The position numbers were made by a program, and so were the translations under genes. From the IMG/VR virus record IMGVR_UViG_3300010885_019455, positions 1 to 49,387 of that record: a stretch of 49,387 nucleotides of DNA; one strand, given 5' to 3'. The notes beneath the pieces were generated by a model that saw nothing but the letters and a program-made list of their open reading frames with translations, searched no databases and had not been told where the DNA came from. Below are positions 14,312 to 40,998 of the stretch, piece after piece (the stretch's first letter is position 1; the number at the start of each line of letters is the position of its first letter). The DNA is from a virus.

Positions 14312-14649
14312 CAAAAGATTTAACAAAATGCAATTGGGATAACTGTAATAATGACAGAGTTTATAAAACTAGTATATATTGCAAAGAGCATAATAATCTT
14401 TATAGCTTATCTAGGAAGTTTGGTATTAGCAAAGATGAAGTATTAATATTAAAAGATAAAAAATATTGTGATATTTGTGAAAATCCTTTTTTAGATAGCA
14501 AAATTTATATTGATCATTGTCATACAAACGGTAATGTTAGGGGAGTATTATGTTGGCACTGTAATATTTTATTAGGACACGCATTCGATAATACCGATAT
14601 TTTAACTAAAGCAGTAACTTATTTAAACAAAAATGAAAGAAAATATTGA
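14308..14649 (+). CDS. Recombination endonuclease VII-like (T4 gp49 family)
   Basis: A 113-residue nuclease of the endonuclease VII (PF02945) type: a zinc cluster with CDICENP and a later CWHCN, and the catalytic segment YIDHCHTNGNVRGVLCWHCN. T4 gp49 resolves branched DNA before packaging. I start it at ATG 14308, which overlaps the previous stop (ATGA), rather than at a TTG at 14275. An extra N-terminal Cys/His group (CNWDNCNND, IYCKEH) may bind a second zinc ion. Stand-alone copies also act as mobile or homing nucleases, so resolvase activity is a family inference. Confidence 0.85.
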   Translation: MTKDLTKCNWDNCNNDRVYKTSIYCKEHNNLYSLSRKFGISKDEVLILKDKKYCDICENPFLDSKIYIDHCHTNGNVRGVLCWHCNILLGHAFDNTDILTKAVTYLNKNERKY

Positions 14650-15511
14650 AAATTCTACAGGTAAATATTACATTTATCATATTCCGACTAAAAAAATAGG
14701 AGTTACACGTAATCTTAATAAGAGAGTAACTATAGCACAAGGCTATAAGATTGGAGAATATGAAGTTCTGGAATCATCTGAAGATATAGATTATATATCA
14801 AGAAGAGAGTCAGAGCTTCAACGTTTATACGGCTACAAAGTAGATCGAGATTCTTATAAAAAAGTAATTAATAAACCTAAAAAATCAAATCAAATGAAAT
14901 TAAACGTAACAGATCAAACAACAACATTTCCATGCCCTGTAAATAAACTGAAGGGACAACTATTGGATGCAGTAGGATTAGTTTGGGAAACGCCATTTGG
15001 CAACTATTTATTAAATAAAGAAATGATTGATTGGATTATATCTAATGCAAAAGTTTCAATGTTTAATACTAATCGATGCTTTGTATATAATAAAGCCTTA
15101 CATGAAGCCGTAGCAGCTAATTTTAATCCTATTAATCATATAGAGCAAACACTTGTTGCTAAAACAGAAGAACAACCAACTACTTATGATTTAATAAGAA
15201 TATGGGCTAGCGATAAAGGTATATTATCGAGCGGCGATCCAAAGACACAATATATAAAGTTAATGGAAGAGTCTGGTGAATTAGCAAGAGCAATATTAAA
15301 AGAAGACAAAAGTGAATTCATTGATGCTATTGGTGATATGGTTGTTGTATTAACAAATTTAGCCGCAATTAAAGGATTAAGAATTGAAGACTGTGTTGAT
15401 AGTGCTTATAATGAAATTAAAAATAGAAAAGGTTCAATGAAAAATGGAACTTTCGTAAAGAACATGACATTAAATCCATATCCAGGTGTAACAATTAAAA
15501 CAACTTTATAA
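14633..15511 (+). CDS. Fusion of a GIY-YIG-like domain and a MazG pyrophosphohydrolase (292 aa)
   Basis: Residues 10-80 (KYYIYHIPTKKIGVTRNLNK, then RRESELQRLYGY) look like a reduced GIY-YIG-type domain: the strand pair and the Arg of the nuclease are present, but the motif is degenerate. Residues about 185-270 are MazG-like: EESGELARA with the paired Glu at 212-216 and EFIDAIGDMVVVL with Glu228 and Asp232/Asp235, where metal ions bind. MazG enzymes cut NTPs or dNTPs to monophosphates. A Met at 88 could give a MazG-only product. Between the ThyA-like enzyme and RNR it may adjust dNTP pools. It overlaps the endonuclease VII gene by 17 nt. Confidence 0.7.
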   Translation: MKENIENSTGKYYIYHIPTKKIGVTRNLNKRVTIAQGYKIGEYEVLESSEDIDYISRRESELQRLYGYKVDRDSYKKVINKPKKSNQMKLNVTDQTTTFPCPVNKLKGQLLDAVGLVWETPFGNYLLNKEMIDWIISNAKVSMFNTNRCFVYNKALHEAVAANFNPINHIEQTLVAKTEEQPTTYDLIRIWASDKGILSSGDPKTQYIKLMEESGELARAILKEDKSEFIDAIGDMVVVLTNLAAIKGLRIEDCVDSAYNEIKNRKGSMKNGTFVKNMTLNPYPGVTIKTTL

Positions 15512-16761: not shown

Positions 16762-18630
16762 ATGAGTTTAAGCCTAGACAAACAAATTTTAAGTGATATT
16801 ACCGTATACACAAAGTATGCAAAGTATGTGCCGTCAAAAGAACGAAGAGAAACGTGGAATGAATTAGTAACCAGGAATATGGAAATGCACATTACCAAAT
16901 TTCCGCATTTAAAAGAATCAATTGAACAAATTTATAAGAACTTTGTATTTAATAAAAAAGTATTGCCTTCAATGCGAAGCTTACAATTTGGTGGCAAAGC
17001 TGTTGAACTTAATAATGCTCGCATTTATAATTGCGCTTTTCTGCCTATTGATAATATCCGCAGTTTTTCTGAAACTATGTTTTTACTTTTGGGAGGAACT
17101 GGTGTTGGCTATTCGGTGCAGAATCACAACATTGATAAATTACCTGAAATAAGAAAACCAAACTACGATCGTAAGAAACGTTATGTTGTACAGGACAGCA
17201 TTATTGGTTGGGCGGATGCAATAAAAACATTGTTTAAATCATACACTGGGGAATTAACTTCACATATTGAATTTGATCTTTCTGATATTAGACAAAAAGG
17301 TGCATTACTTGTAACAGCAGGAGGTAAAGCGCCAGGACCAGAACCATTAAGATTAGCATTGGTTAAAATTGAAGCCATCCTTCGTGAAAAAGAAGATAGA
17401 TCTAAATTAACAGATATTGAATGTCACGATATTCAGTGTCATATTGCCGATGCGGTTTTAGCGGGCGGAATTAGAAGAGCAGCAATGATCTCATTGTTTG
17501 ACTTAGATAGTAATGCAATGTTAAATTGTAAAGCTGGTAGTTGGTGGGAAAACAATTCTCAAAGAGGTAGAGCTAATAACTCTGTTGTTTTAGTACGCCA
17601 TAAGATTGATAAGAAAACATTTGATAAGGTATGGGAACGTATTGAAGCATCTGGATCAGGTGAACCTGGAATATATCTTACTAATGATAAAGATTGGGGT
17701 ACAAACCCTTGTTGTGAGATTGCTTTACGACCATATCAATTCTGTAACTTAACAGAAATTAATATGTCTAATATTGAAAGTCAAGAAGATTTTAATGCAA
17801 GATCTTCAGCAGCATCATTCTTAGGTACGTTGCAAGCATCGTATTCAGACTTCCATTATCTTCGTGATATATGGAGAAAGAATACAGAAAAAGATGCATT
17901 GCTTGGTGTATCAATGACTGGTATTGCATCTAAATCAAATCTAGAATTAAATTATGAAGAAGCAGCAGAAGTCGTTAAACAAACCAATAGAGAAACAGCT
18001 AAATTACTTGGAATTAATGCTGCAGCTAGAACAACAGCAGTTAAGCCAGCGGGTACGACTAGCCTTGTACTTGGTACCTCTAGCGGTATTCATGCTTGGC
18101 ATAATGATTATTATATTCGCCGTATGCGTTTAGGTAAGAATGAAGCAATATACACTTATCTTGCAATCAATCATCCAGAATTGTTAGAAGATGAATATTT
18201 TAATCCTACATTACAATCAGTAATTTCTGTACCTCAGAAAGCGCCAGAAGGAGCAATAACAAGATATGAATCTACATTAGATCTATTAGAAAGAGTAAAA
18301 CTTATATCTAGAGATTGGGTTAAGACTGGCCATGATAAAGGTAACAATACTCATAATGTATCTTGTACCGTTTCCGTTAGAGATGATGAATGGAAAATTG
18401 TAGGTGAATGGATGTGGGCTAATAAAGAATACTATAATGGATTATCTGTTTTACCATATAACGGTGGAACATACAAACAAACTCCATTTGAAGATTGTAC
18501 TAAAGAAGTATATGAACAAATGATGTCTACATTAAAAGACGTTGATCTATCAAGAGTAATTGAGATACAAGATAATACTAACTTTGCTGATTCAGCAGCT
18601 TGTGGAGGAGGTAATTGTGAAGTTGTATAG
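16762..18630 (+). CDS. nrdJ: Class II (B12-dependent) ribonucleotide reductase, monomeric RTPR type
   Basis: A 622-residue adenosylcobalamin-dependent ribonucleotide reductase. It matches the Lactobacillus leichmannii enzyme at all catalytic positions I could align: Cys91 (RIYNC; RTPR C119), Asn315/Cys317/Glu319 in NPCCEI (N406/C408/E410, C408 being the radical Cys), Cys328 in QFCNL eleven residues on (C419), and a C-terminal pair Cys614/Cys619 in CGGGNC (C731/C736). It makes deoxynucleotides without oxygen but needs host B12. Last + strand gene before the central terminator. Confidence 0.95.
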   Translation: MSLSLDKQILSDITVYTKYAKYVPSKERRETWNELVTRNMEMHITKFPHLKESIEQIYKNFVFNKKVLPSMRSLQFGGKAVELNNARIYNCAFLPIDNIRSFSETMFLLLGGTGVGYSVQNHNIDKLPEIRKPNYDRKKRYVVQDSIIGWADAIKTLFKSYTGELTSHIEFDLSDIRQKGALLVTAGGKAPGPEPLRLALVKIEAILREKEDRSKLTDIECHDIQCHIADAVLAGGIRRAAMISLFDLDSNAMLNCKAGSWWENNSQRGRANNSVVLVRHKIDKKTFDKVWERIEASGSGEPGIYLTNDKDWGTNPCCEIALRPYQFCNLTEINMSNIESQEDFNARSSAASFLGTLQASYSDFHYLRDIWRKNTEKDALLGVSMTGIASKSNLELNYEEAAEVVKQTNRETAKLLGINAAARTTAVKPAGTTSLVLGTSSGIHAWHNDYYIRRMRLGKNEAIYTYLAINHPELLEDEYFNPTLQSVISVPQKAPEGAITRYESTLDLLERVKLISRDWVKTGHDKGNNTHNVSCTVSVRDDEWKIVGEWMWANKEYYNGLSVLPYNGGTYKQTPFEDCTKEVYEQMMSTLKDVDLSRVIEIQDNTNFADSAACGGGNCEVV

Positions 18631-18781: not shown

Positions 18782-21700
18782 TTAACCCATTTTTCTTTTC
18801 TTCATTCTTTTTTCTCTTCTTTCTTTTGCTTTTTTTGCTTTATAGATAAATCTTTGTTCAGGAGATAGCTTCATTAATTTTTCTTTTTCAATCTCTCTAT
18901 TTCTTTTTCTAGTTTCAATAGCCTTCTCAATACCCTCTTCTTTACGCTTTACCTTAGCTGCTGCTTTAATGGTTTCATTCTCTTCGTTCTTAACGTTAAG
19001 TTCCCAATCTTTCCATCCTAATGCTAATGCAGTTCTTTGTAATTTAGTATTTCTGGAATCCATTACTTCAGATATGTTATTAATTTTTTCAATAACTCTA
19101 TCTAGTGGCAGGTTAGTAGTTGCAACAGCAATATTCCCGGCTATTCTATAATTAGGCGATAAATTTAATTTACCATCTCTTGTAACTTCCCATCCTCGTT
19201 CAGCAATAACATCTTCTTCAAACTTACTGATTCTAATTGCTCCATAAAGTTTTCTTGCTTTTGAACTTATAGGTGGTGATACACTTGTTAAGGCTAATAC
19301 GGTATAGGCATGATCTGCAAACATTTCTTTTTCTTCTTGTTTGAAGTACTCCATCACAGTGTTTTTTACAGTAGCAATAGCCGCCCCGTATACACCTGAA
19401 CCTCTTAATAAGGTATCAGCCATACCATTAATCATATTTGTTACTTTATCCTCTTGCTTTTTCTTTAACTTTTCGTAGGCTTTTAATTCCTCTTTAGTCA
19501 TCTTAGAAGTATCAGGTTCATCCTCGTCATCATAACCTAATGGTATAAATAATGCAGATTGCAAGGCTGAGAATAACATATTTTGTAATGCTCCGTAATA
19601 TACAATTTTAGATATATTTGTTTTCCAATCTCCGCGTCTATTAACTAAGTCTGACGCAGCTTTTTTGATCAATCTATTGTATTGCATTGGAGTATTACCA
19701 AAAGCTAGTATAATGCGTCCTAGCGCAGTCGTTTGTTGCTTTGATACATACATTGGATCAGCAGATTGCATTGACTGATCTGTTATTCTTGAAAAGTCGC
19801 TAAATGCTTTTTCTTCTGCTTCTTGTTGAGTGTTACCGGCTTTCAAATATGTGTTAACTCTATTTCTATAAAATGTTGCACCACTCACCGCAATAGAAAA
19901 ACTATCCGCCGCTTGAGTAGGTGTAAACCCTATTTTTTGTAAATAAGATATAACTCCATAAAATTTGTTTTTAGCAGTACTTGCAGCATTTGCAATCTCT
20001 GCTTGGGTAACATCGGCTTTTAATCCAGATCTTCTTTCTCTTAATTTATCAGAATTAATAATCATCGCAAAGTCAGCCCAATATTGTTTCTGGTTAAGGA
20101 AAGCTTTACCTGCTTTATATGGATTATTATCATTCCAGTTTATAAAGTTAATTGCTGATATGGTTTGTAATAATGCTGATCTAGTATTAAAGAACATAAT
20201 TGCAGCTGTAGAACCATTAATCCAGTTCATCCAAATGTTTGTTACTCTATCTGTGCCTTCAGGTCTATTCTTACCGTTCTTCATTCTATATAAAGAATCT
20301 TCTAAAGCTTCTCTTACGTTTGTACCATATATAGATTGTATCTTGTTTAGGTTTTCTTTTGTAAATATTGCATCAGCATTCTCTATAAACTCTTCAAGAT
20401 ATTTTTTTCTACCAGCTCCCTCGGTAATATTGTGAAGATCTGATATAATAGTTTCGCTATCCCAAGTAGTTGAAGGATCAATCCATCCACCATCTTGTCT
20501 ACCGGTTATTGACAATGCGTTAGCAAAAGCCAATAGATCTGGGTTTTGTTTTACAAAGTATAATAATTTGTTCTTATCAGTTCTTGATAAACCCGGCACG
20601 TCTTTACCTGCAGAAGACCAAAGATAAACCCTAACAGCTTGATCATAAGTAAAACCTTTATCTGGTGTTAACTTCACAAGTTTCTTTTTAATATCAGGAA
20701 AGTTGTCAAGCAACATTTTATATTCTTTTCTAATAGATTGACGTACTGAATCTAAAGTATTAATACCTTTAACATACGGCACAGTCAAGTTCTTATCAAA
20801 AAATTCTTGATCTTGTTCTCCTTGTTTACCTTTACCTGCAAACATATAAGTTGTTAAACCTCTAAAATCGTCAGCTGAAGGTGGCACAAAGAATGATAAT
20901 GTATTTTTTTTAATACCCGTTCTCTTTGCAACTACATCAGACACTTTTGTAAATGCAGCAACACCGGTGTTTCTCTCTAATATATCATTGAATTCAAAAT
21001 CCAATGTTCTACTAAACTTAATATTTGCTTTATCTTCTAAAACAGAGGTATCTATTATTGCAATACTCTTTGTTGTTTTATCTGAAACTTGTGCCCCATC
21101 TGTATAACTTATAGCTTTTATGCCATCTTTGCGTAAACTTTCAAACAAGGTATCTATATCTTTTCTGCTTAATGAATTTTCAAATCTAGGATCTATTAAT
21201 TCGTAAAAAGATGATTCTTCAACAGTAAAATCTTTATCTACTGGTTTTAAATTTAATTCCTCTATTTTATTAATAGCAATATCTTCATTAACTAAATCCG
21301 ATTTTTTAACAAGAAATTCCTGTACTTTACCATCATTCATTCTAGCGTATTCATTCGCTTCTCTTATATCAGTAGCAAAGAAGTTTACGCCTTTTCTTCC
21401 AATCTCTTTTAGGTTTTTTCCTATTGGTGCTCCAGCATATATGGTAGTATAATCATTTACTGATTTGCTATACTTATTTACTTTTGGCTTGCCATTGTCA
21501 ATTAAATCATTTGATCTAGTTAGTTTAGGATATTTTGAAATTATATATACCCCATCTTCATAAAAAGCGTTCCATCCTAATTTGTCAGCATAAGTTTCCG
21601 CCATTGCGTTATATAGCTTTTTTCTGCTTGGCTCTTCGGCTGTAAATATAAGTCCTTCTGTTCCATTATTTTTTATATAATCTAATACGCCATTTATAAC

Positions 21701-24700
21701 AACGCCAAATACTTCAAAAGCGTCTTTAGATCCAGTTATTTCTACAGAGCCATCTTCATCTGAAAAAGCTAAATTTAAAGTGCCTCCCTCGTAAGACCCT
21801 AATAAATTTGCTTCTTCTTCTTCTAAATTATATTTCTTTATTAAGTTATTTAAAATTTTTTGCTCTTTAGTGGGGTAATTAAATATACCAGTATCTCTTA
21901 AACTTAGAGAATATTCTTTATTATTTACATTAAAATAAGTAATACTTCCACTATCTTGAATATCCCATTTTAAATCTTGTTTTGAATTTAATGAAAATTT
22001 AGAAGTTGCTTCGGGATCTTTTGGCATGTTGTTTTCAACAAACTCGTTTAATTGCTTTTCTGCATTTTTAACAGTCTCAATATTTAAACCTTGATTTAGG
22101 GATTCCATTAAGAAACCAGATCCTTCACGGTCTTCTATTACACCCACGGCATAATCTACAGCTCTGTTCATTCCAAGAATAATATCGTTAGGAACCACAC
22201 CCCAATAGTTTTCAATTTCTTTTGCTAATTGGTCAAGTAACTCATAAGAAGTTTCAGTGCTTAATCTTCTTAAGTTATTTGCATTTATAAAATCTGATAC
22301 TGTAGATATTGATTTGCTTAATTTGCTTTGAGATATATTATTTAAAGCAGCCTTCTCATTTTGTATATTTTGTCTATGCTGCTCAAATGATTTAATTAAA
22401 CTCGCCATATTATTTCCATATAGCTCAATTGCATATCTAGTAAAATCTTTTTTATTTTCTATAAAGTAAAAAGGATCCATCATTTGTTTTACTCCTGACT
22501 TGTCTAATTTTTTTGAAAGTGCTTCCGGTACAGCTATTACTTTGTAGTTTTCAAATATTTCATTTTCTGTAATATTATCGTTTTTATTAATATATTTGTC
22601 TATTAACTGAGCTAAAACAACTCTAGCCGGTTTTGTATGTTCATATATATATTTTGTATTTCTTCCAGCGTATATAATACCTACTACTGGGGCAGCGGAC
22701 CTTATTACACTATTAGCATTGTTAGACAAAAGAGTGAACATAGCAGCTTGATAAGAAGAAGTTAAACCTATTTCAGGGTCTGTTAATTTTTCACCCCACC
22801 ACTTTGCTGCATATACTGTCATTTGTCTAGCTGCTTCACTTCTTATTTGATCTTTTTTAACATCTATTGTTCCGTCTAAAATATTATCGTGAATTTTATT
22901 AATTTTCTTAAATCCAGAATAATTTTTCGCCAACATTCCTTCATTAATATTATTAGTATCTTTACCAAATGCTGTTTTTCTAGCTTTATTTAAAGATAAG
23001 TTAAACATAGTTTTTGCACTTTTCTTTATTCCAGGTCTAAATAAAGATATAATATTACCGCTATTTATAGTTGTTGGTGCCCACATAGAATTTAACATTG
23101 CAGTACCAACTTTATCTCCTTCTTTTAATAAAAGATCAACCATAAAATTTTGATTAAGTTCTTTTAATTTTTCAACATTTTTTGAATCTTTATAAAACCT
23201 AGCTACTGAAATATCTGCACTTAATCGTTTCCAAACATCTTCTCCAAAATCTTGTTCTTTGCCAATGTTTGAAAAATAATATCCTGTATTTTTTTCATAC
23301 TCTAATGGTTCTGCACCTTCCCAAAATTTATAATTTCTTGTTAATATATATTTTAAGCTTGCTGCAACTTCATTTATTTGATCTTCATTCCAATCATTCG
23401 CAAATATGTTAGATAGCATGCTTTTAATATTAACAGTTTCAAAATTTGTTAAATTTGCAATAGCTTTACCTAAAGCTGTAGAATTATTTTCAAGATCTAA
23501 TATTAATTCAGCATTTAAAGAATATTTAATATTACCTCTTTCAGCTAATCTATCTAAATTTTCTACAGTAACTTTACCAAGTTCCGCTCCTAACATTTCT
23601 TGGTTTTTTTGTAAAGCTTGATAAATTGGCCCTCCAGATAACATATCGTCAGAAATTAAATCAAATGCCAATTCTTCACTCATTGCTTTAGCCAATGCTT
23701 CTTTTCTACCTCTTAATGGCAATCCAGTTACTGGATCTATAATTGAATCTAAGAAAACGTCATCCGGAACATTATTAGCTACATTTGGTAATCTTCTAAC
23801 TAATTCCGCTCCTGATGTTCTACCTGCCAAATCTGTTTCAACAGATTCTCTGTCTACTTTTTTACCAATCCAATCGGGAAAACTAGTCCATTGACCATTA
23901 ATCCTTTTTTGAACAGCAAATGGCATACCTCCTGATACAGTTTTTCCATTGTCTTTACCCATTAACCAAGTAGTGGTCATGTTTTCAAGTACAGGCTTTT
24001 TATTCGTTAATAAGAATTTCCTAAGTTGCCCATCTTCTTTTCCACCCATTGCTCTTTTAATATCAATGTCCGCCTGCCTACCAATCTCAGTACGTATCTC
24101 ATTAATTATAGGAGCCGTTGTTCTATTAAGAGTAGTTTTTTCGTCAATTCTAGATTTCAATGTTCTTATTATAGGCAATATTTTTGCTTGAACATCTGTA
24201 ATTACCTCTGGTGAAAATACACCAGATTCTAAAATGTTTTGATATTTTTTTCTTTCTGGTAATGATTGAGTTTTTACTTCAACATCTTCATTAGAAAGTT
24301 TAGTCATTTCAGTAACATCTTCTGTAAATACAACATCCGCTACTTGCCCAGATTTTAATGCAGCCTTCATCCTATTTGCTAGCTGAGCATTTATATAGCC
24401 ATATAAACTATCATTCTTAGAAGGATCAAATTTCTGTATGTAGGGCAGCATTGATACTTTTACATAACTAGTCATCTCTTCCATGCTAAAACCGTCTAAT
24501 CCTCCTTTGTTTTTGTTGGTAAGATCAATGATTGTACCATTAGAAGTTCTATAGTTCCTAGATTTAACTTTAACCATTTTATCTAGCTCATTGTAAATTG
24601 CTGGATTGTTTGGATTAAAACCTTTTGGATCATTACCAATTGCATCTAATTTAGCTTTTGCTTTTGCAGCTGCTTCACTTATTTCAGTTGGCTCTTTTTG

Positions 24701-27700
24701 TGTTGTATCTTTTTTAGTTACTTCTTTTTTAACAACTTTTTTTTCTTCTTCGTATGTTCTTTTAGATTCTTCAAACTCTTCTTGTTCAAGTTTTTCCATT
24801 TCTGATTCATACTTGTCCCAATCAATTTCATTGTTAGATAATTGTAAATCTAACTTTTCCATTCTTTCTTCAATAGACTTTGAAAATGCAGGTGATATTG
24901 GTCCTTTTTTTGTTTCAGAAACCAATTTACCTTTTGCGGCAGAAGTAAATAGTTTTTTTATTGCTTTATTATCAGTTCCGCCTTTTTGTATAGAAGCATT
25001 ATAGTCACGTATAAAATTGAATACGTCACGCCCTGAATCAAATGTTATATCAATTAACCCTAGATCTTGAAGATATCTTCTAATAGTATCACCCAACTTT
25101 GTAAAGAATGATTCATTATATTTTACATTGCCAGTTAGGAGGGCATCGGAAAAAATTGTTAATAATTCTTCATTTTTAATTCCTTCGCTTTTATCACCAT
25201 AATTACCTTCAAGTCTAATTAAAACTTTTTCATTTAAATATAATTCAGGATTTGAAGATAATAAATAGTTTCTTAATTGTTTTCCTAATTCAATTTGGGT
25301 GTCTACATTGCTCAATGTTTTTTCCATTAGCTTATGTAAAAATTCGTGGGAGCCCACAGAAACAGATTTTTGCTTTATTGCTTGTCTTTTGTTTATTACA
25401 ATATAACTTTTACCGGTTTTATCATTTGTTATTATACCACCATCAGCACCAGTAAATCCATTAATATCAGCTTCCTCAGCTGTTACTAATTTTTGTTGAA
25501 CTAAGCCTTTTAATTTTGTTCTAGCTTCAGTTAAATTATTAGCTAATATTACTTCTACATTAGCACTTTCCCCTAACTTTTTTGCTGCATCAAGATTTTC
25601 TTGAAATTCTTTTTCTCTAACTTCACCTAAATCAATTCCCTCTTTTTTATAAATATTTTTTGTTTGGAGTTCTATTTTCTTAAGCATGGTCTTTTTTTCA
25701 TCCTCATTAAGATCAGGATTAAAAGATGCCTCTACTCTTTTAGAATTTAAGTCTATTAATTGAGCTCTGCTTATAGGAGATAATGGCTGACCAAACGTTC
25801 TAACATTTTCAATACCGCTTGTTAATGTATTTAACTTGGTTTGTTCTATAACATAATTCCTTTTAAGAACTTCTAAATCTGTTTCTTTTGATTTTGAATC
25901 AGACTCATTGATGGCATTGGCTTTATTAATAAAATCAGCCATTTTAGAAACCGATTTATTAATAGAATTAAATGTATCAATAGGCATTGCGTCAATATCA
26001 GAAATGGTTTTTTCTAATAAAGTGGTACTTTCGGCCTTTAATATGGATTCTCTTTTAACTAAAGCTTCTTGTTGTACGCTAGATAAGTCTTTATTAAATT
26101 CAAGTTCATGTAATATGGCGGCTAATCCCCTTGCGTTGTCGCTAAGTTTTTGAGCAGTAGTTTTACTCATAAACGGTCTTATAATAGCTCCACCTATTAA
26201 AGGAGCTCCGGCTAATACGGTAGTAAGTATACCAGCATCTTTAATTGTTGCCCCCATATTATCTAATAAGTTTACCTCTTTACCAAGTACAAACTTGTCA
26301 AGTATATTATGACCAGCAGTAGTCAGTACCTCAGACGGAACTTCCTCTGCGTATGCTTCTCCTAAATTTATACCGGCTTGTTTAGCGAATTTTTTACCAG
26401 TAGCCACTTCAAAATCAAACCATTTTCCAGGTTCTTTTTTTGCAACATTCATAAAAAACCCTCTACCTTTTTCTAATATTTTACCAGTAGACTTTTCAAA
26501 TACACCTTCAACATATCCAAATGCAGCAGGAGCAACAATTAATTGCATTGCAGTATAATTTGGCTTTACAAAAACACCATCTTCTGTATAATATCCATTA
26601 CGCTCTTCATTAACCATGTCAAGATATTTACTTCCTGTTGCAACTGCAGCCATACTAGCTGTTTGGCGATTAAGAATTAAATAATCTTTAGCAAACTTAC
26701 CTGTTTTAGCTAATAATGATTTAGAGGCTGAAGCGACTGCTTGTTCTCCTGCACTTCCACCTCGTGTTAATATCATTAATGCTATGTTTGGAGCCTGTGT
26801 TATTAATAAATCACCTGCTTTTTCAAAATTTGCTTCTATCCCGCCTTCTCTTGGTTTTGCATAATTATAAGTAAGTTCTTCTTCGTATCTTTCTTTATTT
26901 TCTGCCAATGCGGTCTTTATCGCAGTAAATGGATTTGCAATTCCAGTAATTTCTTTAATATTTAAAGCGTCATATACCATTTCAGTTGGCTGATAAGTGT
27001 ATGAAGCAAACCCTAATAAATCATTTGCTGCCATCTTAAAATTAGTAGCTATTTTTTTGCCCACTCCAGACCAGGAATAGTCCCTACTAAACATATCACT
27101 TTGCAAGTCTAAGTCATCTATGTTTTTTGATGAAGCAACTATTTTTTTAGAAGTTTCATTCCTTAATTCAGAAAGATCATCCAAATCTTTAATTAAAGTA
27201 TTTCTTTTTGTTATAAGATCATTTTCAATATTTATTTCGTCTTGTGTTTGAAATTTATATCCTTCCGGTTTTAGTTTTTCATTAATCTTATTTATATCAT
27301 TAATATTTTTTTCAACACTTTTTTCTAAACCATCTCGAAATATAGTATTTTTTACATAGTCAAGTTCTTCTTTACCTTTGGTTTTTACAGTATAATTGTT
27401 TACTATTTCCTTTGCTGTTTCGCTTATATTTGTAGTGTCTTCTAAAGCATCTCTAAATTTACTTTCTTGTATTTTTTTTATATTTTCCGCTTTCCATAAT
27501 CCAGCGGCTTGTTGCAATATTTCGTCTTCTGAAAATTTATTAAGTAAATTTTTAGATTTTAACTGTGCTTTTATTTTTTTAACTTGTTCTGGAAATGCTT
27601 GATATTTTTCTTTAACAGCATTAAGTCCGAGTGCTGTTGGCGACTCTTTTGCCATTAAACCATAATTATCACCTCCAGTATTGGTTACTTGTTGTACTGT

Positions 27701-28372
27701 ATTATTTTTAGCTATCTCTAAATTTATAAATTCATCTAAGCCTAGTACTTCCTCGTCAGTTACTTTAGCCGCAGTTTTTGCGTCTTCATACCATTTCTTT
27801 GCTTCGTCATTATTTTTTAAAGCAAGGCGGGACATTCTTGCCTCAAATGCAATTTTTTCTTCTTCTAATTGTTTTGCTTTTTCTGCTTCTTTTTTCTTTG
27901 CTGCTTTAAATGCTTCGTAGCCAAAACTTCCAGGAACAGCATTAGGATCCGCTTCGCCCATTTGTGCCGCAAGTCTTAATCTAGCAGCATTAAAATCAGG
28001 TTCTTGCGCCTTATTATCAACCCGTTTTTTAGTTGTTGCTTTCTTTTCTTGAGCTTTCTTTTGTGTTTGAAAAGCATCTACTAGTGCTTCTACTCCAAAA
28101 GGCGTAATAGCAGGAAATAACTTTTTCTTACCATTCGATGCCAATGAAGGCTTTTTTGAAGACGAAACCGATTTTGGTTTTTCCTTTAGCACAGTGGTTG
28201 GTTTCTTTACAACTGCGCTCTGAGACTTTCCCGGCTTTTCTTTTTCATTTTCTTTTTTAGTTAAACCGTTGTCATTTATAATGTCATCAAAGCTTTTGTT
28301 GTTTTCTAAAGCAGCTGCTTCAATTTCTTCTATAGTATATTCTTCTCCTTTGCTATTAAAATACTGTGCCAT
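18782..28372 (-). CDS. Giant internal virion / ejection-type protein (3196 aa) with polyvalent enzyme-like domains
   Basis: A 3196-residue protein, the last gene of the late operon. It begins with a YFNSKGEEYTIEEIEAAALE-type motif found in phage internal virion proteins, followed by Lys/Glu-rich coiled coils. An HEFLH (His1009-His1013) zinc-peptidase-like motif follows. Around residues 2240-2270 is a GNAT-like segment (FTAEEPSRKKLYNAMAE). Around 2308-2390 is an ADP-ribosyltransferase-like segment (TTIYAGAP, FFATDIREANEYA, SFYELIDP). Near 2895-2945 FGNTPMQYNR and a hydrophobic stretch (LFSALQSALFIPLG) suggest membrane insertion. The tail is very basic. It would be injected with the DNA to breach the envelope and act on host targets. 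Enzyme domains are recalled by pattern and untested. Confidence 0.8.
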   Translation of the reverse strand: MAQYFNSKGEEYTIEEIEAAALENNKSFDDIINDNGLTKKENEKEKPGKSQSAVVKKPTTVLKEKPKSVSSSKKPSLASNGKKKLFPAITPFGVEALVDAFQTQKKAQEKKATTKKRVDNKAQEPDFNAARLRLAAQMGEADPNAVPGSFGYEAFKAAKKKEAEKAKQLEEEKIAFEARMSRLALKNNDEAKKWYEDAKTAAKVTDEEVLGLDEFINLEIAKNNTVQQVTNTGGDNYGLMAKESPTALGLNAVKEKYQAFPEQVKKIKAQLKSKNLLNKFSEDEILQQAAGLWKAENIKKIQESKFRDALEDTTNISETAKEIVNNYTVKTKGKEELDYVKNTIFRDGLEKSVEKNINDINKINEKLKPEGYKFQTQDEINIENDLITKRNTLIKDLDDLSELRNETSKKIVASSKNIDDLDLQSDMFSRDYSWSGVGKKIATNFKMAANDLLGFASYTYQPTEMVYDALNIKEITGIANPFTAIKTALAENKERYEEELTYNYAKPREGGIEANFEKAGDLLITQAPNIALMILTRGGSAGEQAVASASKSLLAKTGKFAKDYLILNRQTASMAAVATGSKYLDMVNEERNGYYTEDGVFVKPNYTAMQLIVAPAAFGYVEGVFEKSTGKILEKGRGFFMNVAKKEPGKWFDFEVATGKKFAKQAGINLGEAYAEEVPSEVLTTAGHNILDKFVLGKEVNLLDNMGATIKDAGILTTVLAGAPLIGGAIIRPFMSKTTAQKLSDNARGLAAILHELEFNKDLSSVQQEALVKRESILKAESTTLLEKTISDIDAMPIDTFNSINKSVSKMADFINKANAINESDSKSKETDLEVLKRNYVIEQTKLNTLTSGIENVRTFGQPLSPISRAQLIDLNSKRVEASFNPDLNEDEKKTMLKKIELQTKNIYKKEGIDLGEVREKEFQENLDAAKKLGESANVEVILANNLTEARTKLKGLVQQKLVTAEEADINGFTGADGGIITNDKTGKSYIVINKRQAIKQKSVSVGSHEFLHKLMEKTLSNVDTQIELGKQLRNYLLSSNPELYLNEKVLIRLEGNYGDKSEGIKNEELLTIFSDALLTGNVKYNESFFTKLGDTIRRYLQDLGLIDITFDSGRDVFNFIRDYNASIQKGGTDNKAIKKLFTSAAKGKLVSETKKGPISPAFSKSIEERMEKLDLQLSNNEIDWDKYESEMEKLEQEEFEESKRTYEEEKKVVKKEVTKKDTTQKEPTEISEAAAKAKAKLDAIGNDPKGFNPNNPAIYNELDKMVKVKSRNYRTSNGTIIDLTNKNKGGLDGFSMEEMTSYVKVSMLPYIQKFDPSKNDSLYGYINAQLANRMKAALKSGQVADVVFTEDVTEMTKLSNEDVEVKTQSLPERKKYQNILESGVFSPEVITDVQAKILPIIRTLKSRIDEKTTLNRTTAPIINEIRTEIGRQADIDIKRAMGGKEDGQLRKFLLTNKKPVLENMTTTWLMGKDNGKTVSGGMPFAVQKRINGQWTSFPDWIGKKVDRESVETDLAGRTSGAELVRRLPNVANNVPDDVFLDSIIDPVTGLPLRGRKEALAKAMSEELAFDLISDDMLSGGPIYQALQKNQEMLGAELGKVTVENLDRLAERGNIKYSLNAELILDLENNSTALGKAIANLTNFETVNIKSMLSNIFANDWNEDQINEVAASLKYILTRNYKFWEGAEPLEYEKNTGYYFSNIGKEQDFGEDVWKRLSADISVARFYKDSKNVEKLKELNQNFMVDLLLKEGDKVGTAMLNSMWAPTTINSGNIISLFRPGIKKSAKTMFNLSLNKARKTAFGKDTNNINEGMLAKNYSGFKKINKIHDNILDGTIDVKKDQIRSEAARQMTVYAAKWWGEKLTDPEIGLTSSYQAAMFTLLSNNANSVIRSAAPVVGIIYAGRNTKYIYEHTKPARVVLAQLIDKYINKNDNITENEIFENYKVIAVPEALSKKLDKSGVKQMMDPFYFIENKKDFTRYAIELYGNNMASLIKSFEQHRQNIQNEKAALNNISQSKLSKSISTVSDFINANNLRRLSTETSYELLDQLAKEIENYWGVVPNDIILGMNRAVDYAVGVIEDREGSGFLMESLNQGLNIETVKNAEKQLNEFVENNMPKDPEATSKFSLNSKQDLKWDIQDSGSITYFNVNNKEYSLSLRDTGIFNYPTKEQKILNNLIKKYNLEEEEANLLGSYEGGTLNLAFSDEDGSVEITGSKDAFEVFGVVINGVLDYIKNNGTEGLIFTAEEPSRKKLYNAMAETYADKLGWNAFYEDGVYIISKYPKLTRSNDLIDNGKPKVNKYSKSVNDYTTIYAGAPIGKNLKEIGRKGVNFFATDIREANEYARMNDGKVQEFLVKKSDLVNEDIAINKIEELNLKPVDKDFTVEESSFYELIDPRFENSLSRKDIDTLFESLRKDGIKAISYTDGAQVSDKTTKSIAIIDTSVLEDKANIKFSRTLDFEFNDILERNTGVAAFTKVSDVVAKRTGIKKNTLSFFVPPSADDFRGLTTYMFAGKGKQGEQDQEFFDKNLTVPYVKGINTLDSVRQSIRKEYKMLLDNFPDIKKKLVKLTPDKGFTYDQAVRVYLWSSAGKDVPGLSRTDKNKLLYFVKQNPDLLAFANALSITGRQDGGWIDPSTTWDSETIISDLHNITEGAGRKKYLEEFIENADAIFTKENLNKIQSIYGTNVREALEDSLYRMKNGKNRPEGTDRVTNIWMNWINGSTAAIMFFNTRSALLQTISAINFINWNDNNPYKAGKAFLNQKQYWADFAMIINSDKLRERRSGLKADVTQAEIANAASTAKNKFYGVISYLQKIGFTPTQAADSFSIAVSGATFYRNRVNTYLKAGNTQQEAEEKAFSDFSRITDQSMQSADPMYVSKQQTTALGRIILAFGNTPMQYNRLIKKAASDLVNRRGDWKTNISKIVYYGALQNMLFSALQSALFIPLGYDDEDEPDTSKMTKEELKAYEKLKKKQEDKVTNMINGMADTLLRGSGVYGAAIATVKNTVMEYFKQEEKEMFADHAYTVLALTSVSPPISSKARKLYGAIRISKFEEDVIAERGWEVTRDGKLNLSPNYRIAGNIAVATTNLPLDRVIEKINNISEVMDSRNTKLQRTALALGWKDWELNVKNEENETIKAAAKVKRKEEGIEKAIETRKRNREIEKEKLMKLSPEQRFIYKAKKAKERREKRMKKRKMG

Positions 28373-28390: not shown

Positions 28391-29794
28391 TTAATTTAAT
28401 TTTGTTTTACCACCCAACAAATATTTTTTAACCTGTTCTTTAATGTCTCCATCTTCTATATCAAATTTTGTACCACTATTAGCACCTGGGGTTGCAATAT
28501 ACCAATTTCCACTAGTAGATCTTGTAACTTTTTTCTTATTATATTCAAAGTCTCCTGCTTCTCCTCCTTTCATTGCGTCTATATTTTCTATTAAGCTTTT
28601 TCTTTCAGCTTCAGCCTTTTGCTGCTTTTTATTATTTGTATTGGTGTTTGTATCACCTGTTTGAACCTCTTCTGTTTTTCTGGTCTCTTCTATAACTCTT
28701 TCAGGTGATTCATCATCTTCTGTTTTAGGTATAGTTTTAATTAAAGCGTCTGCAATGAAATCTCTAACTCTCTGAGTACGTTCAGGTGATAAATCAGTAT
28801 ATAAATCTGCAAGATCATCTCCATTACCAACTACATAGTGATTGTAAATAGCTTGAATACTGCCTTCTTTAGCTAACCCGGCTATGGAGGCATCAATTTG
28901 CATAGATAAAGCAGCCTTCACTTTTTCAGCATCTGGTTCTAAATAATTCTTTTTAATAACTGTATAAACGTCCTTATCAGCTTTATTATTTGTTACAGTA
29001 GATTTGTTTACTTCCTTCTTAGTTTGTTCCACAGAAGTGGTATAATCCCTTAACAAATTACCTTTACCATCAAATACACTTGGATTACTTTTCATTAAAT
29101 TTTCAATAATACCAGTCATTGGCTTTATTGTTTTTAATCCACCGTTTTCGTCCAACATTTTGTTTATTTGATCACTACTCTTCCAGTCCGTTAATTCTGT
29201 ATATCCAAAAGGCTCATCCTCACCTTCGTTCATCATTCCGCTATAAAATTTTATTCTTGGCTTGTAATTGTTTTCAAAATCATAATCTAACTCTATTTTT
29301 CCCGGAGACAAATTTCCAGCAACCGCCATTGAATGCATAAGGGACGGATCGTTTTGCATAGAAAATCCACCAGTCATACCTATATTAGATATATTTTTAG
29401 AATATCCTTCTCCTAAAGACGCTATGTTCTGTACTAGCCCCGCTGTTTCCTCGATTGCTGCTAATATATTTTGTTCTTTTAAACGATCCTCCGCTATATT
29501 TTTACTTTTACCAAAAGCAATATCTTTTTGAATTCTTTCGTATTCAGCAAGCAATGGTGCACATGCCTGCTGTATATTCATAGATGGATTTAACTTTTGT
29601 GCTTTACTAGCAAATGACCTGGCTTTAGCCACGTTTATATCAATATCTTCTTTAAGTTTTTGATTTTTTTTCCCAATCTCAATAAAGGCATTGGTCATTT
29701 GTCTAGAAGAGGCATTTATGTTTTCTTGTAAATCTCTCCAATGTTGCCCTGACTGTGTATCTACTAATATTTCTGGATTTGAGTACGCTCCCAT
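28391..29794 (-). CDS. Internal virion-type protein (467 aa)
   Basis: A 467-residue protein, mostly helical in the first third (QTGQ-like start GAYSNPEILVDTQSGQHWRD, then long charged helices), with a C-terminal Gln/Asn/Thr-rich linker (TGDTNTNTNNKKQQKAEAE) and a final globular unit with SGNWYIATPG. It lies between the 247-aa protein and the giant protein, a position typical of T7 gp14-16-like ejection components. Function by position only. Confidence 0.65.
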   Translation of the reverse strand: MGAYSNPEILVDTQSGQHWRDLQENINASSRQMTNAFIEIGKKNQKLKEDIDINVAKARSFASKAQKLNPSMNIQQACAPLLAEYERIQKDIAFGKSKNIAEDRLKEQNILAAIEETAGLVQNIASLGEGYSKNISNIGMTGGFSMQNDPSLMHSMAVAGNLSPGKIELDYDFENNYKPRIKFYSGMMNEGEDEPFGYTELTDWKSSDQINKMLDENGGLKTIKPMTGIIENLMKSNPSVFDGKGNLLRDYTTSVEQTKKEVNKSTVTNNKADKDVYTVIKKNYLEPDAEKVKAALSMQIDASIAGLAKEGSIQAIYNHYVVGNGDDLADLYTDLSPERTQRVRDFIADALIKTIPKTEDDESPERVIEETRKTEEVQTGDTNTNTNNKKQQKAEAERKSLIENIDAMKGGEAGDFEYNKKKVTRSTSGNWYIATPGANSGTKFDIEDGDIKEQVKKYLLGGKTKLN

Positions 29795-29818
29795 ATATTT
29801 TTATTAATTATTTTATTA

Positions 29819-30562
29819 TTACACTTTAGGCATACCTGCTTTCGCCGTTACAAAATTACCCAATGCGCCACTTATTCCACTAACCATACCTGTTAAAGCT
29901 CCTGTTCTATCTGCTTGAGCTTGCATTTCTCGAGCTTGTGCCCCCTGTAATTGTCCAGCAACTCTGTCCATTTTTTGTTGTTCTCTATTTTCTCTAACAC
30001 CAAACATGAATGATTTGCCAGCTGCTTCCGCTGCTTGCACACGTTGTGCTTCGCTAAGCTGAACATTTTGGATTCTTTGCTTCTCACCCATTTTAGCTTC
30101 TTGCAATTGAGCTTCTCCCTGTGCTCTTAATTTTTCATTATTAGCCTCTTGAGATTCAAGATTAGAAGATATGCCTTGTTTTGCTTTTAATGCTGCTGTA
30201 GCTAAAGCGGTTGCTCCACCCGCACTTGCCCCCGTTTCTTTTAATGTGTCTAATGTATTTGCTAATGAAATATCAATTTGTTCTGCTTCAAATTTAGTAG
30301 CATTTGTAGCAACACCTAAATTTGCATAAGGATTACTTAACATACCTGATAAATCTTTTGCAATACTGCTCATATCTTTTGTAGTTTCATAAGGATTAAT
30401 AATAGCTTGTCTACTATTTTCCAAACTTATAAGTTCTGCTCCTAGTCTATCTTTTTCAGCAGCAGCCGCTCTTTGTCTTTTCTTAGCTTGGCCACCACCG
30501 ATTAGTCCACCTATAACAGATGCACCTACGCTGCCAAGCATTCCTGCAACAACCATACTCAT
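29819..30562 (-). CDS. Internal virion protein with Gly-rich membrane-like N-terminus (247 aa)
   Basis: A 247-residue protein. The first 20 residues, MSMVVAGMLGSVGASVIGGL, form a Gly-rich hydrophobic segment; the rest is long, Ala/Gln/Glu-rich helix (AQLQEAKMGEKQRIQNVQ, QLQGAQAREMQAQA), ending with a second small hydrophobic stretch (GMVSGISGALGNFVTAKAGM). This layout matches small internal core or ejection proteins of podoviruses that insert into the host envelope. It sits directly before the 467-aa and giant proteins. Confidence 0.7.
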   Translation of the reverse strand: MSMVVAGMLGSVGASVIGGLIGGGQAKKRQRAAAAEKDRLGAELISLENSRQAIINPYETTKDMSSIAKDLSGMLSNPYANLGVATNATKFEAEQIDISLANTLDTLKETGASAGGATALATAALKAKQGISSNLESQEANNEKLRAQGEAQLQEAKMGEKQRIQNVQLSEAQRVQAAEAAGKSFMFGVRENREQQKMDRVAGQLQGAQAREMQAQADRTGALTGMVSGISGALGNFVTAKAGMPKV

Positions 30563-30565
30563 ATA

Positions 30566-31039
30566 TTATTCTTTTAATAGTTTATATTCATCATATTGTT
30601 TATATGATACACAAGCTAATCTATCTTCTAATTCATCTATATCCGTAATATTATCAGGATTAGGGTGAACATTAACAAAGATAGAATCTTCTAATGCACA
30701 TATAATTCTTTTTGTTCCTTCAGGAGCATTCACATAACAAGGGGCTACATAATTTGCAGCACCCTCATCTGTAGATATTAATAATTCTCCTTTTAATAGA
30801 AACCATGTATGCGAAAATTTATGTAATTTTCCAATCACTACACTATCTTTTTGCATAAACATCTCTCTTATATATACTCCGTGTGAAAATGAATGTTTCA
30901 ACGGAAATAAATCTGTATTACCTTTTGCAATATTAGGACCTTCCATAGCTAGCATAGTTTGTTCTAGGCGTTCCACTTTATCAATGTATTCCTGGCTAAC
31001 TATTCTATGCTCTTTTTGTGGTTCTAATTTGTTATCCAT
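30566..31039 (-). CDS. Cupin-fold phage protein (157 aa)
   Basis: A 157-residue protein with a single cupin-like beta-barrel: FSHGVYIREMFMQKDSVVIG, HKFSHTWFLLKGELLISTDE, PEGTKRIICALEDSIFVNVH. The H-x-x-x-H-T-x-F-L-L-x-G-x-x and P-x-G-x-K-R segments recall a family spread across marine phages and often placed among tail/virion genes. It could be structural rather than enzymatic; the His residues could bind a metal. Start by position 12 nt after the 508-aa gene. Confidence 0.7.
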   Translation of the reverse strand: MDNKLEPQKEHRIVSQEYIDKVERLEQTMLAMEGPNIAKGNTDLFPLKHSFSHGVYIREMFMQKDSVVIGKLHKFSHTWFLLKGELLISTDEGAANYVAPCYVNAPEGTKRIICALEDSIFVNVHPNPDNITDIDELEDRLACVSYKQYDEYKLLKE

Positions 31040-31050
31040 TATATTTAATT

Positions 31051-32577
31051 TTAGTAAGATGAATCTATGTATTCAGAAGATACAGCAAATAATTCCGCGC
31101 TTTTGTTTAAGCTTGCATTAGTATAATTCATTCTAACTGTTGCTGTTGTTCCTTTAACGCCTGTCATTGAGTTACCCCATACAATTTCACTATTTGCTGC
31201 TGGTGTAATATTAACAAGATTTGCAAAATATTTATCTTCTTTCCTTTTGAATGAATTTGTAAATAATTGTAATTCTAAATCAGCAAGAGTCGTAGTATAA
31301 GTTGCTTTAGATACAGGGACCGAAACATCAGAGTCAGTATAAAATGATAAAGTTTCCCAACCTGGACCTCCTTCATAATTAATTGTTTTAAAAGTTTTAA
31401 CTAATGAAACTTCTGGATTAAATATAACTTCAACTGCTGAATCATAAGTAATACCATAGAAACTACCCCATCCTGTATTGCTTGGAGAATAATGTTTCCA
31501 TATTTCACCGTTTTTAAATGTATAGAAGTTATTTCTTAAACTTCCACCTTGGTTTGGTTTATAATCGAAGAAACTTGTCCACCCTGCTACATCTTCATCA
31601 AACGTTAAGGTTTTATAAGTTCCATCTACAGGTTGCATTGATAAAACATATTCTTTATTATGCATGTCCCACATACCTAGTATAAAACCATTGTTACCAA
31701 TTTCAGAAAGATTATCTCTAAAGAAATCTCCCATACCATATTCTGATATTTCAGATATACCATCTTGTGATAATCTTAATACTACATTTCTGTTTCTATC
31801 AACAAAGTACTTACGGAAGCCATAAACAGCAAAACTTTCTGGATTAGTACCAATACCATAGTTACCAGCATAAGCTTGAACCTGACCGATTACCATAGCC
31901 CCAGATGTTGTTATTGGTTGTCCTTCTGCTGAATAGATAGCGTCTTTGTCAATTAATGCTTGACTAACTTTGAATTCTTGGAATATAATTAAGTTTGTAT
32001 CTTCTGAATATAACTTTTGAATAGAACCATTTGTTGGATCTAAGCTTCTTGTTATGTCTTCTCCTACAGAAAATTCATTTGTTTTATTAACTCCTGTTCT
32101 TGAATTAAATACTCCTGAATATATCAAAGAGTTTTGCCTATGCTGCTGTTGTGGTCTGTCTTCTACTATATAGGCTTTAACACCTAAATCAACATTAGTA
32201 TTGTTATACCCACCTCTAATTCTTGCTTCTTCAACAAACCAATCTGACTCAACTGGTTCATAAGCTGCTGGTATATAATCAAAGTTTGTTATTGGTCCAA
32301 AAGTTAATACTTCCGCATCATCAATATCAACTGCTTCACTTAATATAAATTCAGTAGCACTTGTTTTTTTATATACATAAGGATTAGGCACAGGAGCACC
32401 ATCCCAGCTAACATTTTGACCAACACCTATATTTCCATTCGCTTCTGTTATAATTATAGTAGCAGAATCTACAACAGCTGCATCGAGCACAGCCGTTGTA
32501 TTTTCTACTTCTACTATTGTATCTAACTTCTTTAACCAAAAAGAGTTAAAGTATTTTAATTCTAATATTGCTGCCAT
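31051..32577 (-). CDS. Tail protein resembling the C-terminal part of a muzzle/stabilisation protein (508 aa)
   Basis: A 508-residue beta-rich protein. Pieces such as EDTNLIIFQEFKVSQALIDK, IYSAEGQP, VIGQVQAYAGNYGI, NPESFAVYGFRKYFVDRNRN and LRLSQDGISEISEYGMGDFF are, as I recall, found in the C-terminal part of larger tail stabilisation proteins of marine and crAss-like podoviruses. Here they form a separate gene 67 nt after the 1712-aa protein, so the usual single protein may be split in two. Confidence 0.65.
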   Translation of the reverse strand: MAAILELKYFNSFWLKKLDTIVEVENTTAVLDAAVVDSATIIITEANGNIGVGQNVSWDGAPVPNPYVYKKTSATEFILSEAVDIDDAEVLTFGPITNFDYIPAAYEPVESDWFVEEARIRGGYNNTNVDLGVKAYIVEDRPQQQHRQNSLIYSGVFNSRTGVNKTNEFSVGEDITRSLDPTNGSIQKLYSEDTNLIIFQEFKVSQALIDKDAIYSAEGQPITTSGAMVIGQVQAYAGNYGIGTNPESFAVYGFRKYFVDRNRNVVLRLSQDGISEISEYGMGDFFRDNLSEIGNNGFILGMWDMHNKEYVLSMQPVDGTYKTLTFDEDVAGWTSFFDYKPNQGGSLRNNFYTFKNGEIWKHYSPSNTGWGSFYGITYDSAVEVIFNPEVSLVKTFKTINYEGGPGWETLSFYTDSDVSVPVSKATYTTTLADLELQLFTNSFKRKEDKYFANLVNITPAANSEIVWGNSMTGVKGTTATVRMNYTNASLNKSAELFAVSSEYIDSSY

Positions 32578-32644
32578 AAGTTATATAATCACATGTTTTT
32601 CGTTTTTTTTAGTTTAATTATAGTATTTTACGTTAATAAAGCTA

Positions 32645-35600
32645 TTAGGCTGGAGCTTGATAATATACATTATAACTATAATTTGCAATAGGCAACGGTC
32701 CTGAGTTAGCATTATTTTGTCCAACCCAAGCTGTTTGAGAATTTGGCGTAGGTATTATTTGTTCTATTACCTCTCCGTCAGCATCAAATTTAGCACAATA
32801 GAAAGGTGTTTCGGTATATTTGCCCGTTTCATCTGGATCATAATTTTTAGTTGTTCTAAATACATAAAATCTATTAGCGACCGGTGGAATCCATTTCTCA
32901 GTAAAATTATCGTCTGTATAAAATCTTTTTATTTCAGTGCCTTCTATTGTATTTGCATATAATGCTCCTAGACTTTCGTTATCAAGTGCCGTTTCAATAT
33001 TCAAATTACCTCCCGCTAAACTTCCTGCTGTACCTGCAAATTCGTTAATTAATTGTAAAGCAATTTTATTTGGATTACCATCAACATTTATTGCAGCAAT
33101 ATATCCTATAAAGCTACTCACGGAAGCAGAATTAAATATATAAAATAAACCTGGGACAATTTGATTATTGGTGTTTGTTAAAATAACTTCTGTTGCAAGA
33201 TCTCCTATACTAATTGTTCCAGATGTTATGTCATTTACTGGTGAATTATATTCTAACCCTCTTGTAGCATCTTGTGTTTCATAAGGAACTCCAGATGGAT
33301 AATTTCCAACATATTCTTCTACTCCTGTATAATAGGTATAATAATTTGTTATCGGTATTAAAAGCCCAGGTAACGTTTGTGTATAAGAATAATTTGCATC
33401 TTCCCCGTAAAACCTAACAGTTGGGTATGTGCCTTGTGTATTTGTAAGTACATTTATTATTTTTACCCCAATAGCATACTCATATAATGTAGGCTCTGCC
33501 TCAATGGTAAAAGAAGTTGTTAATGCTTGTTCTTGTCCATAGATGAGAGTTCCGCCATCGTCAATTGTTGTAACAATTAGGGGACCTATTTTATAAGCAG
33601 GATTTCCAAAGTTGTTTTCATTATTGGTTTGTGCCCAAGCTGTTGGTGTACCTGAGATATATGGTCTTTTATATAAATATATTTCCGCTTCAGCTCTTAT
33701 TGTAGCAATGCCTAAAGCAGGATTACAAAGTCCGGGAGCAGGTACATCTAACTTTATTTTAACTCTATATTCACCTTCACTTAAACCTGTTGGCAATATA
33801 GGGCCTTCACCAAAATCAGATGCATTTTTAACTTCTACGTTTTCAACAAACTGGTATACACCACCAGATCCAGGAATTATTGGCATATAAGCATTATTAG
33901 GCGAATTATTAGGCCCTATATAAATCATACCATAAGGAGCTGATCCACCTTCGCAGGTAGTTTGTCCATTTATATTAAGAGTACTCTCGTATTCAGGTCT
34001 TAACCAAAACGGAACGGGTTCATCACCTACATTTATAGTTAACTCAATAGTAGCAGATTTTGTACCAAAGGTTGTTCCCTCAACTGGTAAAATTGCGCCA
34101 GTAGATGTATTAACAGCATCTTGTACTTTTATTACTAAGTTATATATACCTAAAGGCACTTGATCGTCTATTAATTCTAATAAGCCGCTATATGCACCTA
34201 TTTGGAAGTAAGGTCCTGGATCACCACTATCTATACTCCATTTTAATCCAGTTTCAGATAATAAAAATGAACCATTGTTTGCTTCTAATGTTACAAAGCT
34301 AGTTGTATTTTGTGTTATATTATAATTTTCTTCTGTTGTAGTTATAATTGGTGAACTATTGCCCAATCTACCCTCTATAGTTAATGTTGCTGAAATAGGT
34401 TGTTCTGGATCAGAAAGATCTTCTACATTAAATGTAAAGGTATAAGATTCTTTTTCAGCAGCATTGTTATTAAATACAAAAGTAGATGTTGGAGTTATAA
34501 ATAACCTATATAAATCGTTTGTACCATCATTAGTTGCTTCTATTCCAAAATCACCTAATCTACTAACACCACTTCCGTCAAAAATTGTATCAATAGTAAC
34601 TGTTGTATTTGATATAATAATACCGTTTTGATTTAAAACATAAAATTCATCAGTTATGTATTTTGAATCTTCGTCTCCTGCTCCGTCCCCACCTCCATCA
34701 GGGTCTTGCCATTCAAAATGGGTATAATTAACATTGCCAAAACTTACAGGACCATCAAAACCAGTTAATACATCTGCGTTCAAATCAGATATTAGTCCTG
34801 TAGTTGCTGTTTCCCAAAACAATTCTAATAGACTTTGCTCAGGCCTTGTTTCATATACACTTAAAAAAGGAATCATGTCAGAAGCTATAACCCCAATTTC
34901 ATTAACCGTAGAAACTCTGCCTATTAAAGGTTTTGTTTGCAATTGATAAAAATTTAATCCTGCTGTACCACTTAAATTATCTTCAGAACTATCCAAAAAA
35001 TTAAACTCATCAGCTGAAGCAATTGATGTAACAGTATCTGCTTTTCTAGTTGGAAAATATTGTACATTTTCTGCTCGTGTAATTATAAAAGTAACATAAG
35101 GATCTCCATTTGGATTTGCTCCCGCAGTTAATACCCAGTTTGGAGAAGATATTGTTATAGTGCCTGTGGTGCCAACAATTTCGTTAGAAACAACAACAGT
35201 ATTACCTAGCCATCTATACGGACTTGGTTTTGTCCCTCCTAAAGGAGGATCATTATCCACAGGAGCATTGGCTTCTACACATTGTATTCCGTCTCCAGCG
35301 CTTATTAATGTATAATCTGGGTTTGTAACGGTGTCATATTCTATAGTAGTTACTTTAGCTGAATAATCAGGGTCTTCTCCTGTTATTTCTAATGTTGCTT
35401 TTGTATTCTCTACTCTACCATACAGCTGCACGCTACTTCTATATTGTTTTTGGTCAGGACCAACTTCTGATAAATCTCTTGGGACTTTATTAATATTATC
35501 ATTAATTAATACAATGTGAGATGTGTTACCCGTTTCACTAACCGGAAATTGTGTAGTATTTATACCATTTTGTAATCTGGAAGTAGCTGTAACTCCAGTG

Positions 35601-37783: not shown

Positions 37784-37789
37784 TTAATT

Positions 37790-39019: not shown

Positions 39020-39025
39020 GTGCTA

Positions 39026-39949: not shown

Positions 39950-39973
39950 TTTGCTTATTTTATTATAATATAT

Positions 39974-40983: not shown

Positions 40984-40998
40984 TACAATTATTTATAC

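Follow-up and report, generated by a model that had tools for sequence, protein, structure and literature searches.

Location and genomic context of the giant gene

The stretch of DNA analysed here (the window, 49,387 nucleotides) is a 49-kb virus contig from IMG/VR, in which an open reading frame with an ATG start runs on the minus strand from 18782 to 28372 and encodes a protein of 3196 residues. The gene had been put forward in an earlier, sequence-only reading that assigned no strand to it; the ORF proved to be real, and the motifs quoted at that time were all found at the residues given for them (HEFLH at 1009, EEPSRKKLYNAM at 2246, IYAGAP at 2311, FFATDIREANEYA at 2331 and YELIDP at 2390). 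Little support was found for the membrane-active parts that had also been suggested: the protein contains one clearly hydrophobic 19-mer only, at residues 713–731. The giant gene is the final gene of a co-directed virion cassette, whose upstream part (28391–48309, minus strand) encodes terminase, portal, capsid and tail proteins together with two small internal-protein-like genes. The terminase shows 64% identity to that of MW202828, an unclassified podovirus from a spring, 44% to those of Flavobacterium phages of the genus Elemovirus and 31–39% to those of Cellulophaga and Tenacibaculum phages. In several of these terminase-related phages the virion cassette also ends in a giant gene (3859 aa, 3694 aa and 1871–1935 aa); gp123 of Cellulophaga phage phi18:3 (1935 aa) and Elemovirus gp21 share with the window protein both the same gene order and the place as last gene of the cassette. 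Elemovirus gp21 is annotated as a structural protein, whilst the record of phi18:3 gp123, the positional equivalent, annotates it as a virion protein on the basis of MS/MS. With the window gene last in its cassette and gp123 detected in virions, the window protein would probably be part of the virion as well, as judged by position only.

Domain organisation and family of relatives

Searches with the whole protein as a single sequence against Pfam, PHROGs and PDB sequences gave no significant match, and domain calls therefore required family alignments. We assembled a family of 48 distinct long members from IMG/VR and from metagenome bins, which was extended to distant members via the C-terminal core, the GNAT-like part and the ART part. 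Comparison with these relatives shows an N-terminal region that varies among them (residues 1–919; 25616–28372), followed by a zincin-like metallopeptidase domain (920–1158; 24899–25615; from alignments, model and structural matches) and a conserved middle region (1160–1612; 23537–24895). Behind this lie a swapped cargo module (1620–2016; 22325–23515), a conserved spacer module (2021–2124; 22001–22312), a GNAT-like cargo module related to DUF6934 (2129–2299; 21476–21988) and an ART-PolyVal-like cargo module (2304–2451; 21020–21463), the last two called from profiles and a model, before the protein closes with a conserved C-terminal core region (2456–3196; 18785–21007), all on the minus strand.

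Over the last ~700 residues the IMG/VR relatives are 92–95% identical to the window protein, with one at 76%. Outside this core, stretches are unrelated or absent among relatives in a module-like pattern: with regard to the eight closest relatives, the stretch 1612–2000 is common to L004 only, the GNAT-like part (2112–2290) is present in L002, L004 and L008 only and the ART part is found in none of them. Another member of the family (L046, 7205–10597) carries a zeta-toxin/AAA_33 kinase-like P-loop domain as a further kind of cargo. The core itself gave no significant Pfam or PHROG match; it may resemble LPD38, a phage-type polyvalent C-terminal domain, and the LPD38 profile found no match in 18 diverse cores.

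Neither a 645-aa diverged core nor the C-terminal half (1584 aa) of the window protein found a relative in 50,697 phage records, and the first 863 residues of the window protein and an ART homologue likewise found no match in this collection. Amongst bacterial assemblies the carrier family was encountered in metagenome bins only, mostly of Bacteroidota. Three carrier genes (L119, L121 and L122) come from contigs assigned to a Woesearchaeota metagenome bin, which is probably a binning error given that the remaining family occurs in Bacteroidota-type material.

The zincin-like domain is present in every relative

The HEFLH motif (residues 1009–1013; 25334–25348, minus strand) would supply zinc ligands and the catalytic glutamate, with E1069 (25166–25168) as the predicted third zinc ligand: H1009, E1010, H1013 and E1069 are invariant in 20–22 homologues of 25–98% identity, as in the HExxH...E ligand set. 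HEFLH is not a chance match: from its composition, this protein is expected to contain only ~0.002 HExxH motifs, and each of the 48 distinct members has one such motif (HExxH or HExxxH) ahead of its core, although a few match the profile only weakly. In L006 and L009, where the domain at first sight seems to be lost, a divergent zincin was found by profile. The structural model of the domain is middling (pLDDT 68), and its top structural matches are zincins (lethal-factor-type and PPEP peptidases), albeit at Z about 5; an Elemovirus structural protein is among the viral matches, and the alignment profile gave chance-level matches only against PDB sequences. The zincin proposed in the sequence-only reading is supported by its invariant ligands, with a structural match that is weak. 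No other enzyme-like domain is shared by all relatives, and such universality is more in keeping with a protease that processes the giant protein than with an optional effector directed at the host.

GNAT-like and ART-like cargo modules

The profile of the GNAT-like module corresponds to DUF6934 and scores above the curated cut-off in the relative L042. A model of residues 2112–2470, which covers the GNAT-like and ART domains together, is of good quality (mean pLDDT 83), and the structural neighbours of model residues 18–172 belong almost without exception to the GNAT superfamily, albeit with modest Z values of 6.5–7.7; Foldseek by itself gave weak GNAT matches only against the PDB. These results uphold the earlier suggestion of an acetyltransferase-like segment. 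Past the central strand, the window protein reads T2213-G-S-K-D-A2218 where the family has T-G-x-G-N-A: G-N-A/S is kept in 18/18 aligned homologues, and the alteration to S-K-D-A occurs in the window alone. We infer that this loop corresponds to the acyl-CoA pyrophosphate-binding loop of GNAT enzymes.

In case of the ART module, no relatives were found by the window sequence alone, but they were recovered once an alignment was used as the query. The window copy is 54–65% identical to its closer homologues, and 4 of 6 aligned homologues match Pfam PF18760 (ART-PolyVal; best E 4.8e-5), whereas the window copy on its own does not. The best PDB match to the ART part of the model is chain B of 9k3a from the pre-ejectosome of cyanophage A4 (Z 8.5, rmsd 4.0 over 128 residues, 12% identity), Alt-type phage ADP-ribosyltransferases are among the weaker viral matches and the alignment profile found chance-level matches only among PDB sequences. 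The ART assignment of the sequence-only reading is accordingly confirmed by the homologues and by a good model; of the three folds it had named, those of the GNAT-like and ART segments are well modelled and that of the zincin is matched weakly. The active-site triad of the ART survives in part. Polyvalent ARTs use His, Tyr and Asp (Iyer et al., PMC5512222), and the window ART keeps Y2342 in strand 2 and D2425 in strand 5 but has A2313 in place of the strand-1 histidine. Of 24 aligned copies, 17 have His at this position, 4 have Asn, 1 has Thr and 2 (the window and L018) have Ala, whilst Tyr and Asp are kept. Catalysis by the window copies of both modules is uncertain given A2313 and the altered acyl-CoA loop, and their activity is best described as putative on folds that are right; the proposal that they modify host proteins is correspondingly weakened for the window, both active-site regions being altered. 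Values of dN/dS of 0.14–0.20 (with dS partly saturated) indicate that the two modules remain under purifying selection.

The point at which the ART module was gained or lost can be read directly from a relative with an empty site: L004 reads DLIDNNKPKETMYSKS-LDFEFND where the window reads DLIDNGKPKVNKYSKS-[ART]-ANIKFSRT-LDFEFND, and over the 600 nt past the ART site, six relatives that lack the ART are 89–94% identical to the window. The exchange took place exactly at a short peptide tag, and one such tag stands on each side of the module. In four further members (L027, L031, L032 and L082) an ART has FDFDDT...VLYTMPG in front of it and AEEFAKNGSKL... behind it, apparently as an insertion in a HAD-like domain; as this site differs from that in the window, the ART module is mobile.

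A short peptide tag marks the cargo junctions

In its strict form we defined the tag as [K/Q/M]-[F/Y]-S-[K/L/R]. The window junctions (all minus strand) read PAFSKS at 1162 (relaxed tag AFSK, 1162–1165; 24878–24889), IKYSLN at 1616 (KYSL, 1616–1619; 23516–23527), SKLSKS at 2017 (relaxed tag KLSK, 2017–2020; 22313–22324, placed by local-alignment ends), SKFSLN at 2125 (KFSL, 2125–2128; 21989–22000), NKYSKS at 2300 (KYSK, 2300–2303; 21464–21475) and IKFSRT at 2452 (KFSR, 2452–2455; 21008–21019). Relatives have VQQAKIKFSLTSKQDLKW ahead of the GNAT-like module and IQQAKIKFSKT ahead of the core. In the 48 proteins 136 strict tags were observed against 37 expected from shuffles, an excess that is significant individually in only 22 of them; for the window protein alone the numbers are 5 and 0.84 (P 0.0025). 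Loci from metagenome bins that were collected after the tag had been defined contain 27 tags against 10.3 expected, and 200 shuffles never gave more than 18. The tags are concentrated in the cargo region between zincin and core, with 2.13 per 1000 residues compared to 0.30 before and 0.15 after it (7–14x). They also coincide with the ends of local alignments: the median distance is 1 residue, whereas randomly chosen positions give 33 and the string lacking its serine gives 45, a strong effect that does not translate into a clean P value, as neither alignment ends nor family members are independent. In the model of residues 2112–2470, three tags fall in or at the edge of low-confidence linkers.

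The tag serines are encoded by TCN codons in about 45% of cases and by AGY codons in 56%, and the junctions of the window use TCA, TCT, AGC and AGT. Since both unrelated codon sets are used, it is the peptide and not the DNA that is conserved. The tag is not universal in the family, as 7 of the 48 members, all with a zincin, lack a strict tag ahead of the core; nor is it general, since the positional giant proteins of the cultured relatives elemoA and MW202828 contain an HExxH but hardly any tags. Neither of these two matches the core, zincin, GNAT-like or ART profiles of the window. In the open-access literature we found no description of such a tag.

A proposed cassette-bearing carrier protein

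A self-processing polyprotein would be expected to combine, as is seen here, an ever-present protease with a tag where its cargo modules meet. We hence consider it somewhat better than an even bet that the window encodes a virion-carried polyvalent protein of a podovirus-like aquatic Bacteroidota phage, that is, a cassette-bearing polyprotein that is cut at its tags, probably by its own zincin. Here, one zincin protease, the middle region and the ~700-residue C-terminal core form a fixed frame, which leaves room for cargo modules that can be exchanged: in the window, a module without a fold call, the GNAT-like module and an extra ART, with junctions sharing the short tag in flexible linkers. 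The protein would be packaged in the head and leave it together with the DNA, after which cutting at the tags, most likely by the zincin of the protein itself, would release cargo modules that may then act separately inside the host. A stronger version of this reading, which we hold tentatively and at less than even probability, is that of a true polyprotein in a large uncultivated family of Bacteroidota DNA phages, in which effector cassettes are swapped at the [K]-[F/Y]-S tag and cut by the universal zincin, much as RNA-virus polyproteins are cleaved at their cut sites.

The main rival keeps the injected polyvalent protein but lets it act as an uncut chain, with the tag serving as a module cap or docking peptide that would assist folding, packaging or passage through the portal. 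The conservation of the peptide at module starts would suit this, as would the N4 virion RNA polymerase, which retains a zincin and yet is packaged uncut (PMC5512222). On the other hand, the tags stand outside the folded modules, in linkers modelled at low confidence, and precede very different folds, so that a recognition site suits them better than a structural cap, and a zincin kept in every member also speaks for cutting; we regard the uncut chain as rather unlikely. That the ART and GNAT-like parts of the window have decayed or been repurposed, for example as binding domains, in a protein mainly for DNA ejection or structure with the zincin as sole active enzyme, seems somewhat unlikely to us: both A2313 and the T-G-S-K-D-A loop depart from the family pattern, but constraint persists at the dN/dS values above, and a residue other than His in 7 of the 24 ART homologues indicates that the histidine may be dispensable in this branch. 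The original proposal of the sequence-only reading, with zincin, GNAT and ART all acting on host targets in the first minutes of infection, fares less well and is now improbable; all three folds are present and T4 Alt shows that a phage ART can be injected (PMC5512222), but the zincin is universal, unlike optional effectors, and the active-site positions of the other two are altered in the window copy. Finally, we rejected as very improbable a tag that is purely a DNA-level recombination site for cassette swapping, as module exchange exactly at the tags would be explained but not the use of both unrelated sets of serine codons, four of which occur at the junctions of the window gene.

Comparison with known systems

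For polyvalent proteins, (auto)processing by a zincin and injection were proposed by Iyer et al. in 2017 (PMC5512222), and the window protein resembles these giant multi-domain phage proteins in combining zincin, ART and GNAT-like domains. Two hallmarks of the class are seen here, namely a gene encoded with late or virion genes, in this case within the virion cassette, and several disparate activities in one ORF. The window family differs in that the zincin is fixed in all members, near-identical phages swap cargo and the junctions are tagged; the text of Iyer et al., searched for linkers, boundaries and a cut site, describes none, and the H-Y-D site of polyvalent ARTs contrasts with a window ART that has no histidine. 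Other delivered proteins share individual aspects with the window protein. The N4 virion RNA polymerase and the P1 Dar/DdrB proteins are packaged in the head and delivered with the DNA, and the N4 polymerase and DdrB contain a zincin domain (PMC5512222); their cargo differs from that of the window, and no such tag has been described for them. T4 Alt is an injected ADP-ribosyltransferase, as is proposed for the window ART, but it is a stand-alone protein with an R-S-E active site (PMC5512222) and not a module of a giant carrier. The cyanophage A4 pre-ejectosome protein is assembled inside a podovirus head, although its likeness to the window ART is at fold level only.

What is new is the construction principle, in which a fixed zincin and core are combined with exchangeable cassettes whose junctions are tagged. 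The 2017 proposal of zincin-driven domain release named no cut site, and the tag reduces this question to a single peptide. Reading between tags also provides a rule by which effector modules missed by profile searches can be found in giant phage proteins, and if cassettes are indeed swapped at tags, the carrier would be a natural delivery frame whose payload differs between nearly identical phages.

Other genes of the window

Several further genes of the window merit mention. On the plus strand, a 252-residue sigma-70-like protein (6398–7156), with Sigma70_r2 just over the cut-off, is a candidate phage sigma factor, and a small lipoprotein-like ORF of 56 residues (8792–8962; MKKVILTLATVTTLLVSCNDKK...) is possibly a surface protein of the infected cell. 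A 292-residue protein (14633–15511, plus strand) carries a C-terminal MazG domain behind an N-terminus that by eye is GIY-YIG-like or similar. A ribonucleotide reductase of 622 residues (16762–18630, plus strand) shows weak matches to the barrel and to a B12-dependent insertion domain, and its gene block runs opposite to the virion genes. Within the virion cassette, a 157-residue protein (30566–31039, minus strand) matches short tail fibre and tail fibre adhesin PHROGs.
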